From positions 682,001 through 746,000 of the forward strand of contig NZ_CP009512.1 of the NCBI RefSeq assembly GCF_000970205.1: a stretch of DNA of 64,000 bases. Direction: 5' to 3'. Each line of letters begins with the position of its first letter. The first letter of the stretch is position 1. The position numbers and the translations under genes were made by a program. Positions 16,355 to 21,760 of this stretch are shown here, piece after piece. This stretch comes from Methanosarcina mazei S-6. Lineage in GTDB: Archaea; Halobacteriota; Methanosarcinia; Methanosarcinales; Methanosarcinaceae. Under the pieces are notes generated by a model. The model had not been told where the DNA came from and searched no databases. It saw nothing but the letters and a program-made list of their open reading frames with translations.

Positions 16355-17407
16355 TCAGAACTTGAACTTCTCCCTGCTCCTTTCCATAATTTTCACAAGG
16401 GAAAGCATAACAGGCACTTCCACAAGCACTCCCACAACTGTCGCGAGAGCTGCCCCTGATTCCATTCCAAATAGAATTAAAGCTACTGCTACCGCCAGTT
16501 CAAAGAAATTGCTGGCACCGATAAAGGTCGAGGGTGCAGCTTCCATATAAGGGATTTTAAGGTATTTCGCTCCTGCATAACCTATCCAGAAGATCAGGTA
16601 AGTTTGCAGAACAAGGGGGATCGCAATCAGGAGGATATGCAGAGGGTAATTAATGATGTTGCTTCCCTGGAATATAAAAATCAGGACAAGAGTTATCAAA
16701 AGCCCGGCAGGAGTGATCCATTGTGTTTTTCGTATAAGTTTATTTTCAAACCAGGAAATGCCTTTTTTCTTTATCATTACCTGCCTTGTCAGCACAGCAA
16801 GACCGAGAGGAATTGCCACATAAAACAGGACCGAGACAAAGATTGTCATTAGAGGAACAGGGAAGTCAGTTGTGACTCCGAGCAGGAATTTTCCCAGCGG
16901 GGCGAAAAGGACCAGGATTATAAGGTCATTTACTGAGACCTGAATTAAAGCATAGTTAATATTTGCTCTTGCAAGGTAGGTCCAGACAAGTACCATCGCC
17001 GTACAGGGGGCAAGCCCCAGAAGAATCATGCCTGCAATGTACTGTGCCTGAAGGTCAGCAGGGATCAGGGCTTCAAAAAGAACGCTCATAAAAAACCACG
17101 CAACAAAAGCCATTGTAAAGGGCTTTATCAACCAGTTTACGACAAGGGTCAGGACGAGGGGTTTCAGGTTCGCTTCGACATTCAAAATCTCTTCAAAATT
17201 AATTTTAAGCATTATAGGATACATCATGATCAGGAGTACTACAGCTACGGGGATCGAAACTTCTGCAATTTCAATTCCACCAAGGGCGCGCGCAAATCCT
17301 GGAAAAGCATATCCCAGTGCGGTTCCGAGTATGATGCAGACCGCAACCCAGATAGATAGGTATTTACTGAAAAAGTCGAGCTCCCTTTCTTCAGTTCCCT
17401 CAGGCAT
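16355..17407 (-). CDS. ACR3-type arsenite efflux permease
   Basis: A protein of about 350 residues with ten hydrophobic segments of the ACR3/bile-acid-sodium-symporter fold. The diagnostic segment GLAPCTAMVLVWTYLARANINYALIQ with its essential Cys, and VSVNDLIIL after it, are present near the middle, together with NFEEI near the N-terminus. The ATG at 17407 has GGAG 6 nt upstream and overlaps the end of the UspA gene by 8 nt; an in-frame ATG further up would overlap more. Arsenite export is the family role. Coupling to UspA suggests a stress operon. Confidence 0.85.
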   Translation of the reverse strand: MPEGTEERELDFFSKYLSIWVAVCIILGTALGYAFPGFARALGGIEIAEVSIPVAVVLLIMMYPIMLKINFEEILNVEANLKPLVLTLVVNWLIKPFTMAFVAWFFMSVLFEALIPADLQAQYIAGMILLGLAPCTAMVLVWTYLARANINYALIQVSVNDLIILVLFAPLGKFLLGVTTDFPVPLMTIFVSVLFYVAIPLGLAVLTRQVMIKKKGISWFENKLIRKTQWITPAGLLITLVLIFIFQGSNIINYPLHILLIAIPLVLQTYLIFWIGYAGAKYLKIPYMEAAPSTFIGASNFFELAVAVALILFGMESGAALATVVGVLVEVPVMLSLVKIMERSREKFKF

Positions 17408-18287
17408 ACTCTTCTCCTTCGTCCCACTCTTCTCCATCAAATTCTTTGCTCGCAGGGATAATTAATACGGGTTTTATGGTTTTTCGGAGAACGCTTTCTG
17501 CCGTGCTCCCGAGTATCAGGTCTATCAAATCCCCTTTCCCACGGGAAGTCAGCATAATCATAGTGGCCTCTTCTATGTTTGCAAATTTGACAATTTCGTC
17601 GGATGGGATGCCCTCAACAACAAGGTACTGGCTCTTTATGCCAGTAAGCTGCTCTTTTATTCTCCCTAGTTTTCCTTTTGCTTCTTCTCTCTGTTCATCC
17701 AGCAAATCCATGTCTTTTATGTTATCTATTACGTGCAGGAGCAGGACTTCTTTTACTATCCCCCCAAATTCCTGAAGCTGCTCTATCGCTTTCATTGACT
17801 CTTTCGAAAAATCAAGAGGCACAAGAACCCTTGAGAAAGTTGCCCTGCATGCATTTTTATAAAATTCTTTCCCTTCTTTCAGGGCATCGTACTTCTCAAC
17901 AAGCAGAATCTTCTTTGAACTGCGTGCAATGTGTTCCGTAGTCCTCCCAAGAAATCTTCCTTTTATGAATCCCTTAGCTGTGGCTCCCATTATTATGGCA
18001 TCAACATTTTTCCGGTCCGCGGTTTCTGAAATTGTCCTCTTAATATCTCCTACCACTACCAGAGCTTCGGTTTCAAGCCCCAGTTCCTCTGCAAAGCCCG
18101 TGTAGTCCTCAATTCTTTTCTTTGCATTTCTCTCAAACATGGGGGCAAGCCCCTGGCTTTTATGTATGTCCACAACGTGCAGAAGAATAACCTTCTTCAA
18201 TCCCGCATTTTTAAATTCCCCTATGCAGCCAAGCAAGTCTTCCTTTTCAATGGTAAAGTCTACAGGAACAAGTACAGTTTCAATCAA
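17400..18287 (-). CDS. tandem universal stress protein (UspA family)
   Basis: A 295-residue protein with two UspA domains, residues about 1-140 and 155-285. ATP-binding glycine motifs are visible in both: MGATAKGFIKGRFLGRTTEHI in the first and TSRGKGDLIDLILGSTAESVL in the second. Each begins with a beta strand, VLVPVDFTIEKE and VLVPLDFSKESM. It is the first gene of a two-gene unit with the ACR3 permease. The role is stress response with nucleotide binding, with no specific partner known. Confidence 0.9.
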   Translation of the reverse strand: MIETVLVPVDFTIEKEDLLGCIGEFKNAGLKKVILLHVVDIHKSQGLAPMFERNAKKRIEDYTGFAEELGLETEALVVVGDIKRTISETADRKNVDAIIMGATAKGFIKGRFLGRTTEHIARSSKKILLVEKYDALKEGKEFYKNACRATFSRVLVPLDFSKESMKAIEQLQEFGGIVKEVLLLHVIDNIKDMDLLDEQREEAKGKLGRIKEQLTGIKSQYLVVEGIPSDEIVKFANIEEATMIMLTSRGKGDLIDLILGSTAESVLRKTIKPVLIIPASKEFDGEEWDEGEEYA

Positions 18288-18702: not shown

Positions 18703-19086
18703 TCACTCGGATTGCAGTATCTCTTTTACTTTGTCCCTTGCTTCCTTAACTTCTTCGTCTTTAAGATCCAGATCTTTGTTCTTTTTGATTCCTAACTCGG
18801 AGATCACAATATGCCTGTCCGGGGTAAATCCTGCAAGTTCAAGGGTCTCTTTCGTGCAGTTTAAGGGGCAGCCGTCAATAGCTATAAGCCTCTCGGAACC
18901 TTCGGCCGATTTCAGGAGCCCGTTGATCCTGCCGCCAATCCCGACGGTGCACATCATTTTCCCGACTTCCTGCTTTGTAAGTTCGACTGCAATTTTGTTC
19001 GCTATCTGACCGACGTTGGACGCTCCGCTGCAGGCAAAGATTCCGACATTTGCCGAGCCGCATGAACATTTTGTTTCTTCTGCCAT
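18703..19086 (-). CDS. DGC-domain putative zinc-binding protein
   Basis: A 127-residue DGC-domain protein. The N-terminus has a Cys pair (KCSCGSANVG), followed by FACSGASNVGQIANKIAV and the signature AIDGCPLNCTKETLELAG. It is the third gene after the YraQ/ArsP-like permease and a thioredoxin-like protein, an arrangement that suggests handling of metal, metalloid or sulfur species. It is a paralog of 3308-3739. Biochemical role unknown. Confidence 0.78.
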   Translation of the reverse strand: MAEETKCSCGSANVGIFACSGASNVGQIANKIAVELTKQEVGKMMCTVGIGGRINGLLKSAEGSERLIAIDGCPLNCTKETLELAGFTPDRHIVISELGIKKNKDLDLKDEEVKEARDKVKEILQSE

Positions 19087-19116: not shown

Positions 19117-19359
19117 TCATTTGGTGATCCATTTCTTGATGTCTTCCACGCTTGGGACTTTTCCTGCGACTTTGACGTCTCCGTCAATAACAAGGGCAGG
19201 CGTGACCATAACTCCATATCCAAGAATTTTATCAAAATCCTCTACCTTGACAATTTCAGCATCAACGCCCAGTTCTTTGACTGCTTTTTCTGCCAGTTCC
19301 TTTGTTTTTTTGCATTTGGCACATCCAGTACCCAGTATTTCGATTTTCATGTATTTCAC
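19117..19359 (-). CDS. thioredoxin-like small disulfide protein
   Basis: An 80-residue protein of the MTH895-type thioredoxin-like family. The redox motif GTGCAKCKKT is at residues 8-17, VTPALVIDG gives the cis-Pro region near 52-60, and a C-terminal helix follows. It lies between the permease and the DGC gene and is probably co-transcribed. A thiol-disulfide role supporting the neighbouring permease is inferred. Confidence 0.88.
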   Translation of the reverse strand: MKYMKIEILGTGCAKCKKTKELAEKAVKELGVDAEIVKVEDFDKILGYGVMVTPALVIDGDVKVAGKVPSVEDIKKWITK

Positions 19360-19466: not shown

Positions 19467-20519
19467 TTACACAATCGTAAGTCCGAATATATACCCCGAA
19501 ATAGTTGCAACCACTATTACGAAGAAAATATAAGTCATTCCTTTTTTTATTCCCATTACCCGGTTGATAACAATCATACTTGGAAGGCTAAGTGCCGGAC
19601 CTGCAAGAAGCATGGCAAGAGAAGGTCCTGTTCCCATTCCAAGCAGGGTAAGAGCTTTGATGATAGGGACTTCCGTAAGAGTGGAGAAGTACATAAGGGC
19701 TGCTGCAATAGATGCGACAAAGTTAGAAGCAATGGAATTCCCTCCTACCAGAGATGCTACAATCTCTTTTGGGAGCACTTCAACTATAATGCCTGCGAAA
19801 AATACACCTATAAGGAGCAGGGGTGTGATCTGTTTTATCAGGAACCAGGTCTCTCCCATCCAGCTTTCAAGCTCCTCTTTTGAGAACCACTTAATAGACA
19901 GGTATGCAGTAAGAGCTATCAGGGGTATCCAGGCAATTATTTGATTTGTGAATTTCCAGCCCCACGAGGACATGAATTCCGGTGCTACAAGAACTGCAAT
20001 TAGCAAAATAAAAAGTTCAACAGTGTGTTTGTGTTCTTCTTCTCCAAAGGTTTTTATGGAACTCTTTTCCGCTTCTTTCCTTTCGTAAATCAGAGACATT
20101 GTAAGGCCTATAAACACTGACATAATTACAGCCAAAATGGCTCTTGCAGCTCCGATATCATATCCCAGGATTTTTGCGGTATAAACAACTGCAAGGATAT
20201 TGATTGCCGGGGCAGAGAAAAGAAAAGTGGTTGCAGGACCTATTCCTGCTCCTCTTTTGTATATCCCCGCAAAAAGAGGAAGAGCCGTACAGCTGCAGAC
20301 CGCAAGAAGGCAGCCTGAAACCGCAGCTACGGTATATGAGATATATTTTGGGGTATCCGCGCCAAAGAACTTCAATACGGATTCTTTGGAAAAGAGGGAG
20401 GCTATTGCTCCAGCTAGAAGAAAGGCAGGTAGGAGGCACATCAGCACATGCAGAGCTAGATACTCCTGAAGCGACTGGAACCCGACCGATATGAGATACA
20501 TAAGATAATCAATGGTCAT
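19467..20519 (-). CDS. YraQ/ArsP-like (DUF318) permease
   Basis: A 350-residue membrane protein with about eight to ten hydrophobic segments. The diagnostic motif GCLLAVCSCTALPLFAGIYKRGAG, with vicinal-type Cys, and FLFSAPAINI follow it; a second half with GNSIASNFVASIAAALMYFSTLTEVPI mirrors it. ArsP members export trivalent organoarsenicals, other members are uncharacterised. It is first in an operon with the thioredoxin-like and DGC genes, under a promoter carrying two palindromes. Confidence 0.83.
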   Translation of the reverse strand: MTIDYLMYLISVGFQSLQEYLALHVLMCLLPAFLLAGAIASLFSKESVLKFFGADTPKYISYTVAAVSGCLLAVCSCTALPLFAGIYKRGAGIGPATTFLFSAPAINILAVVYTAKILGYDIGAARAILAVIMSVFIGLTMSLIYERKEAEKSSIKTFGEEEHKHTVELFILLIAVLVAPEFMSSWGWKFTNQIIAWIPLIALTAYLSIKWFSKEELESWMGETWFLIKQITPLLLIGVFFAGIIVEVLPKEIVASLVGGNSIASNFVASIAAALMYFSTLTEVPIIKALTLLGMGTGPSLAMLLAGPALSLPSMIVINRVMGIKKGMTYIFFVIVVATISGYIFGLTIV

Positions 20520-20553
20520 TTTTCCACCAGGTTTTTTCAGATTTCTTGTTATT

Positions 20554-20573
20554 ATTTCAAATATATTTGAAAT
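20554..20573. promoter_or_regulatory. operator palindrome 1, permease promoter
   Basis: A perfect 20-bp palindrome ATTTCAAATATATTTGAAAT, 35 bp upstream of the permease ATG. It covers the predicted transcription start, about 25 nt beyond the TATA box at 20576-20585. It shares arms ATTTCAAA-N4-TTTGAAAT with operator 2. Confidence 0.8.
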
Positions 20574-20575
20574 AA

Positions 20576-20585
20576 ACTATATAAA
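20576..20585 (-). promoter_or_regulatory. TATA box of the permease operon
   Basis: ttttatatag on the minus strand, placed exactly between the two palindromes. A protein bound at both would cover the TATA box and the transcription start. Confidence 0.65.
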
Positions 20586-20592
20586 ATTTCCT

Positions 20593-20612
20593 ATTTCAAA
20601 TTATTTTGAAAT
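20593..20612. promoter_or_regulatory. operator palindrome 2, permease promoter
   Basis: ATTTCAAATTATTTTGAAAT, the same inverted arms as operator 1 with a different 4-nt centre. Centre-to-centre spacing is 39 bp, about four helical turns, so two dimers could bind the same face. An ArsR/SmtB-type repressor is the most likely kind of protein, but none is encoded here. Confidence 0.78.
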
Positions 20613-20704
20613 AAGTTTGGAGCCTGTATTTCATGTCTACTGCAGATCTCCTGAAGGGTTCGAATATGAGTTTATTTATATATTTTCTGTAGCGTTTTAT
20701 AGGG

Positions 20705-21071
20705 ATGAAAATTAAAGTCGAATCAAGCTGTATATCCAGAAAAAGGTGTTTTCTTTATACTATTCTTCTGTTCATCCTTGCAGGTGTTTTTGAAATCGGA
20801 GGAGGATATCTGGTCTGGTTGTGGTTAAGGGAAAATAAGGGAGCATTATTCGGGCTTCTGGGAGGGCTGATATTTAGCTATCTATGGAGTCATCCCAACC
20901 TTTCAATCGGCAAATTTCGGAAGAGTTTCTGCTGCATACGGAGGAATTTTTATTATTTCCTCTCTTATATGGGGCTTTTTTGTCGATAAAAAGAGACCTG
21001 ACAGATATGAGGTTACAGGTGCATTGATAGCACTTGTGGGAGTTTTTGTAATGTTCTATACCCCTCGCTGA
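20705..21071 (+). pseudogene. UPF0060/YnfA-family membrane protein, frameshifted
   Basis: The first frame reads a hydrophobic YnfA-like start ([29 protein letters not shown]) and then runs into the unrelated [10 protein letters not shown] end at 20989. From about 20874 the +1 frame continues the family exactly: [26 protein letters not shown], then [25 protein letters not shown] and a TGA at 21069. One base too many (or two missing) near 20873 breaks a gene of about 120 codons. A TATA-like ttatttatatatttt at 20671-20685 lies 20-25 nt before the ATG. It is divergent from the permease operon. Confidence 0.85.
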
Positions 21072-21447: not shown

Positions 21448-21614
21448 GTGACCCTTAATTTATTGTCTTCCAGGCATCTCTTAAAACGTATATTCATGTT
21501 TACAGTGTTCCTTTAAATCCTCTATAAAAGCAGCGTAAAAGTTCTCAGGAATTATAATTCCCTCTTCTCTTTATCAGACATACTTTCTCTAAAAAACATG
21601 TTTTTCTGCGAACT

Positions 21615-21722
21615 AAAAAACAGTTAAGAAATAAAAAACAGTTAAGAAATATAAAACAGTTAAGAAATATAAAACAGTTAAGAAATAAAAAACAGTTAAG
21701 AAATAAAAAACAGTTAAGAAAT
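21615..21722 (-). repeat. 18-bp tandem repeat x6 downstream of amtB
   Basis: Six copies of aaaaaacagttaagaaat, with cagttaag at 21621, 21639, 21657, 21675, 21693 and 21711. Two copies have one base change (atataaaacag). In the sense of amtB the array is T-rich with a run in each unit and lies right after the hairpin terminator. No spacer variation, so not a CRISPR. Confidence 0.92.
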
Positions 21723-21724
21723 AA

Positions 21725-21760
21725 AAAAATCTGTTTGAGAGCCAGGGTGAAGATTCACCC
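21725..21760 (-). terminator. hairpin plus T-run after amtB
   Basis: A perfect 16-bp palindrome GGGTGAAGATTCACCC starts 4 nt past the amtB stop, followed in the gene direction after 17 nt by a T7 run. It looks like an intrinsic-type terminator, with the 18-bp array beyond it as a possible back-up. Confidence 0.7.

Follow-up and report, generated by a model that had tools for sequence, protein, structure and literature searches.

Gene content of the locus

The window discussed here is a stretch of 64,000 nucleotides, bases 682001-746000 of a 4.14-Mb, one-contig Methanosarcina genome (G000). The GlnK1 protein of this genome matches PDB entry 8tge, an M. mazei protein, along its entire length, so that the species is probably M. 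mazei. It includes an operon for an ArsP-type permease, a small thioredoxin and a DGC-domain protein (Table 1), and the profile matches confirm the gene content which an earlier, sequence-only reading had given it. The permease belongs to the ArsP family by its PF03773 match; its best NCBIfam matches are the SO_0444 Cu/Zn (111.9 bits, cut-off 300) and SaoE (106.8 bits, cut-off 325) efflux families, both below the equivalog cut-offs. The 416-bp gap behind the DGC gene holds a terminator-like hairpin, and the universal-stress-protein (Usp) pair beyond it may be transcribed separately. It is followed by a gene for an ACR3-family arsenite efflux transporter, which the sequence-only reading did not mention.

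Table 1. Features of the permease operon, its promoter and the adjoining genes (window coordinates)
Feature	Position	Strand	Basis or remark
Outer putative operator	20592..20613	.	9-N4-9 palindrome TATTTCAAA-TTAT-TTTGAAATA; abuts BRE
BRE-like GGAAA, directly 5′ of TATA box	20587..20591	minus	sequence, conserved; functional role inferred
TATA box TTTATATA of permease operon	20578..20585	minus	sequence and column conservation with operators
Inner (promoter-proximal) putative operator	20552..20575	.	perfect 24-bp palindrome TTATTTCAAATA/TATTTGAAATAA
ArsP_1 (YraQ/ArsP-like) permease, 350 aa, first gene of operon	19467..20519	minus	PF03773, 276.5 bits (cut-off 32.3)
Small thioredoxin, MTH895/ArsE family	19117..19359	minus	PF13192; TIGR00412, 113 bits (cut-off 62)
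DGC-domain protein	18703..19086	minus	PF08859, 124.1 bits (cut-off 27)
Universal-stress-protein pair	17400..18287	minus	PF00582; 416-bp gap before, may be separate transcript
ACR3-family arsenite efflux transporter, co-directional	16355..17440	minus	TIGR00832, 376.4 bits (cut-off 282.8)

The relative G008 carries on one strand the genes for ArsP, thioredoxin, DGC, an ArsR-family protein (ArsR-B), a second ArsP-type protein, a thioredoxin, Usp and an ACR3-like protein; in our genome ArsR-B and the second permease lie at 3.05 Mb. From this gene order, the window resembles a G008-type array whose middle block has moved away, and the ACR3 gene probably belonged to the array ancestrally. ACR3 is found directly behind the permease at two further loci (L185 and L213), and an arsenite methyltransferase (ArsM) occupies the place behind the permease in genomes of the f3 type and in ANME-2.

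The paired palindromes

The 20-bp palindrome ATTTCAAA-N4-TTTGAAAT is present exactly at 20554-20573 and again at 20593-20612, 39 bp apart from centre to centre, as the sequence-only reading had described. Both copies extend into the slightly longer palindromes listed in Table 1. The TATA box which it had placed between them is likewise there, with a BRE-like element in addition, and the order on the minus strand is outer palindrome, GGAAA, TATA box, two bases, inner palindrome, leader and the ATG at 20519. Counted from the TATA centre, transcription would be expected to start approximately 27 nt further downstream, near 20554, which agrees with the earlier placing of the start within the nearer copy. 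The promoter shows the layout of an ArsR-type operator, namely inverted repeats that overlap or touch the core promoter elements.

A lone palindrome of this kind is unremarkable: approximately 1.35 perfect 8-N4-8 palindromes of any sequence are expected by chance in 64 kb. The window also contains four matches to the 20-mer with up to three mismatches where 1.49 are expected, so that one degenerate copy carries no meaning. The part that is not chance is the occurrence of the identical sequence twice at a fixed spacing. It goes beyond chance because no third perfect copy was found across the 4.14-Mb contig, because the pair recurs in other genomes, and because it is conserved against diverged flanks. 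A paired pattern, TTCAA-N6-TTGAA occurring twice at 16-28 bp, was found in 30 of the 60 genomes searched, our own included and with one (G015) that looks like a chance match; the reversed pattern, used as control, was found in none. In an alignment of 12 Methanosarcinaceae upstream regions with the 39-bp spacing, column identity is 92.5% and 94.2% for the operators and 93.9% for BRE/TATA, compared with 54.9% and 66.0% for the flanks. By this comparison of sequences the pair is a phylogenetic footprint. The inner operator is conserved in all Methanosarcinaceae orthologues compared, and the outer one is conserved as well, having been lost in a single genome (G006). The spacing is 39 or 40 bp in Methanosarcina and 37 to 40 bp in the other genera compared; since 37-40 bp corresponds to 3.5-3.8 turns, cooperative binding on the same face of the helix is not argued here.

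A scan of 84,980 species places the pair in front of ArsP in most of the named archaeal matches. It precedes an ArsP-type permease in Methanosarcina, Methanolobus, Methanococcoides, Methanomethylovorans, ANME-2 and Methanocella, and precedes thioredoxin-DGC in genomes without ArsP. Of the 119 loci in the paired-pattern scan, 80 are bacterial by their titles, have no ars-type match nearby and resemble unrelated palindromes. That the palindromes are RNA hairpins, a terminator or A+T-rich symmetry arising by chance is extremely unlikely. Random perfect palindromes are indeed frequent enough, as calculated above, but the sequence itself, beyond its symmetry, is conserved across families. The outer copy lies upstream of the TATA box and hence outside the operon transcript, the neighbouring genes are divergent and so share no terminator, and an Rfam search gave no match at threshold. 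The results of the paired-pattern search, the column comparison and the species scan refute this reading, unless the conservation has another cause.

The candidate regulator

No gene with an HTH_5 (ArsR) match was found between 682 and 746 kb. The earlier statement that no regulator adjoins the operon thus holds for the window, but not for order-level relatives. In G041, G049, G052, G053 and G057 a gene of one ArsR clade and the ArsP gene are transcribed divergently from either side of the pair; the ArsR gene lies directly upstream of ArsP in G039 and approximately 1.2 kb upstream in G050. An ArsR gene also adjoins the permease in contigs of Methanolobus and Methanomethylovorans, and is part of the operon in Methanocella. 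The permease-linked ArsR proteins of G032-G057 form a single clade (support 98/97) with a protein of our genome that we term ArsR-A, apart from seven other ArsR proteins of that genome; G032 appears as a long branch. Within the clade, the divergent ArsR found in Methanolobus and in family f3 makes up a subtype of its own, sharing 32-50% identity with our ArsR-A. ArsR-A is a 121-residue protein encoded at G000:C1:571791-572156, unlinked to the operon, and its gene adjoins a NikR-like gene in the Methanosarcinaceae. A recognisable operator in front of the ArsR-A gene itself was not found in Methanosarcina, so autoregulation is not seen in this genus.

Within the genus, each of the 21 genomes with operators has an intact ArsR-A (19 recognised by the paired pattern, together with G003, which has one mismatch, and G006, which has the inner site only); the gene is missing or broken in seven of the ten genomes without the pair. 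The gene is interrupted by stops in G005 and G012 and has deletions through the core CVC region in G019; searches of G010, G017, G022 and G024 did not find it. Fisher's test of this co-occurrence gives p = 4.6e-5 (a value which ignores relatedness and includes some incomplete genomes; p = 0.0014 for genomes of at least 90% completeness). Counter to co-inheritance, G023 (complete) and G009 (75% complete) keep ArsR-A with no target found, and G044 has the pair with no ArsR-A found. G015, also counted among the ten, keeps the gene together with one operator. ArsR-A pseudogenes were recognised at L367, L366 and G012:C9:26726-27055, all in genomes lacking paired operators.

ArsR-B (G000:C1:3053912-3054223) was initially favoured as the regulator, since it sits in the operon of three relatives (G008, G025 and G027, after DGC); it also carries a CAC motif. 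It was demoted on account of a different palindrome of its own and of its distribution. G032, G033, G034 and the pair-bearing order-level genomes lack a clear orthologue, ArsR-B is present in six of the ten genus genomes without the pair, and its co-occurrence with the operators is weaker than that of ArsR-A (p = 0.0067; 0.054 for genomes of at least 90% completeness). We therefore regard it as quite unlikely that the same operators are bound by another ArsR, among which ArsR-B would be foremost. The palindrome upstream of ArsR-B in G008 (L130:13900-14200) is ATATCAA-N6-TTGATAT, which is probably its own operator and part of a separate regulon.

We conclude, with a probability of about 75%, that the palindromes are paired operators of one dimeric ArsR/SmtB repressor, in this genome probably the unlinked ArsR-A, which an inducer would release. 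A dimeric repressor occupying both sites had been proposed by the sequence-only reading, and is the reading best supported by the pair, its conservation and the linkage in relatives from which it is predicted.

Further sites of the proposed regulon

An operator profile built from 32 operators gave three clear sites in our genome, the pair itself (24.3 and 22.9 bits) and a site at 3044644 (25.4 bits); the next match scores 18.7 bits, and matches of this score and lower are treated as unproven. One of them, at 3889339, precedes a citrate-synthase-like gene without a matching TATA geometry, and another, at 2795733, sits in coding-like sequence. The site at 3044644 is a near-exact copy of the 20-mer (19/20) and has an identical TTTTATATAG box (TATA) at the same distance as in the permease promoter. 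The sequence-only reading had counted the lack of any further copy of the motif against its proposal, and this copy removes that objection. The site at 3044644 lies approximately 300 bp before a gene for a SAM-dependent methyltransferase, an arrangement conserved in G008. A short way beyond this site, the relic of a permease-like gene is preceded by a decayed site (14.3 bits); the G008 homologue of this gene has the full pair.

Among relatives, the pair also precedes genes of the TauE (sulfite-exporter) type in G025 and G027 and is near one in G033. Paired or single operators occur upstream of a zinc-finger/TauE pair in G033 (L131:5870-5920) and of an FmdE-domain gene in G057 (L134:1995), which suggests a wider regulon in other families. 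G015 keeps one operator, before another ArsP-type gene. Wherever a single site is retained (3044644 in our genome, G006 and G015) it is the inner one, from which the inner site seems to be primary.

In the absence of inducer, one ArsR-A dimer would cover the transcription start by occupying the inner copy, and another would lie on the outer copy, against the BRE. With both sites occupied, TBP/TFB and RNA polymerase should be excluded from the arsP-thioredoxin-DGC promoter. Binding and repression, as opposed to activation, are what the positions predict. The outer site does lie upstream of the BRE, where archaeal activators can help TBP/TFB, and repression is assigned from position and from the habit of the family; ArsR/SmtB proteins are mostly repressors. 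That the pair recruits an activator is nevertheless highly unlikely, given that the predicted start lies within the inner site, which is also the one retained where only one remains.

Our genome also has, at 3.041-3.061 Mb (L136), a second island of the ars-like type, in which at least four ArsR genes occur along with genes for ArsP-type permeases and thioredoxins.

The putative sensing site and inducer

ArsR-A matches NF033788 (HTH_metalloreg) with 77.7 bits (cut-off 55) and HTH_5 with 59 bits (cut-off 22), which places it in the ArsR/SmtB family. Its predicted model (pLDDT 90.3) has the winged-helix ArsR fold, and the best PDB matches are SmtB, CadC and CzrA. The motif C59-V-C61 is invariant in 17 ArsR-A homologues and, in the predicted model, falls where helix 60-67 begins, which corresponds to the alpha-3 metal site. 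The ArsR of R773 has its site at Cys32, Cys34 and Cys37 (PMC12607644). ArsR-A shares the Cys-X-Cys arrangement at the start of alpha-3, but an invariant Val64 stands at the position of the third cysteine and our protein contains two cysteines only. A site with two thiolates fits a soft metal or metalloid, but is also compatible with a disulfide switch.

Metal(loid) sensing is likely, in view of the ACR3 pump in the window and of ACR3 or the arsenite methyltransferase in the operons of relatives. The inducer would most likely be a thiophilic metal or metalloid, for example As(III)/Sb(III) or a methylated arsenical; on binding to Cys-Val-Cys at the start of alpha-3 it would cause the regulator to leave the DNA, and the detoxification operon would be made. 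Of the ArsR-type metalloid or thiol sensor suggested earlier, the ArsR type is now supported, while metalloids enter by association with the ACR3 and ArsM neighbours. It is possible, though doubtful, that ArsR-A reads the operators in response to thiol/redox or sulfur stress, or to Cd, Pb, Cu or Zn, with no part for metalloids. The two close cysteines of CVC could form a disulfide, the operon encodes a thioredoxin, and TauE-type genes carry the pair in two relatives and lie just behind it in G033; a metal is suggested by CadC, a Cd/Pb sensor, among the nearest solved folds and by the sub-threshold Cu/Zn and SaoE matches of the permease. A non-metalloid signal is opposed by the ACR3 gene of the window, by the genes that follow the permease in relatives (ACR3 directly behind it in some, ArsM in others) and by the assignment of the thioredoxin to the MTH895/ArsE family.

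A more specific version seems rather unlikely. It supposes that a two-cysteine ArsR, responsive to methylated or otherwise organic arsenic or to some other organometal produced by methanogens, reads the two-operator bracket around the TATA box, whose retention spans Methanosarcinales and Methanocellales. From its unlinked locus beside the NikR-like gene, this ArsR would control a small trans regulon of ArsP-type permeases and a methyltransferase.

Comparison with known systems

CadC carries a CxC motif, as does ArsR-A, and CadC of Staphylococcus aureus pI258 is among its closest solved folds (TM-score 0.74-0.75 for the predicted model). Unlike CadC, our ArsR-A lacks N-terminal cysteines, and the cargo is different. 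In methanogens, the repressor NrpR acts on two palindromic operators at one archaeal promoter; the motif and the protein family differ from those described here, and the NrpR signal is nitrogen. Bacterial ArsR/SmtB ars operons (R773 ArsR, Bacillus ArsR/AseR; PMC12607644) are alike in the family of the dimeric winged-helix repressor, in CxC in alpha-3 (with the third cysteine of R773 ArsR that ArsR-A lacks), in an inverted-repeat operator at the promoter and in ArsP/ACR3/ArsM cargo. They differ in that here two operators bracket an archaeal BRE/TATA and, in Methanosarcina, the candidate regulator gene lies elsewhere in the genome. Another winged-helix regulator of a methanogen, likewise with modulation through cysteines, is MsvR of Methanosarcina acetivorans (PMC3729527). 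ArsR-A reaches 29.4 bits where the MsvR cut-off is 220, and is a different regulator. M. mazei also has MM2441, a regulator of the ArsR family that sRNA162 controls; it is linked to methylamine genes (PMC3510493) and is not claimed as regulator of the operon.

The literature searched gave no experimental description of such an operator in Methanosarcina. As judged from sequence comparison, the system is an archaeal counterpart of the detoxification operons under ArsR control; its operator is doubled around the TATA box and its probable regulator is unlinked. Its novelty is modest; beyond the sequence-only reading, the analysis contributes the pattern of conservation, a candidate regulator with its regulon, and the connection with ACR3. 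It gives a methanogen genus a concrete predicted detoxification regulon, for which the operator sequence and its geometry, the target operons and a candidate regulator can be named, and the promoter could serve methanogen genetics as a metal(loid)-inducible one.

Other features of the window

A UPF0060/YnfA homologue on the plus strand (20705-21071) is apparently frameshifted, its N-terminal part lying in one frame and the remainder in another; relatives have longer, tandem copies at the corresponding place. Between two genes at 21600-21730 there is an array of tandem repeats of approximately 17 bp (aaaaaacagttaagaaat).
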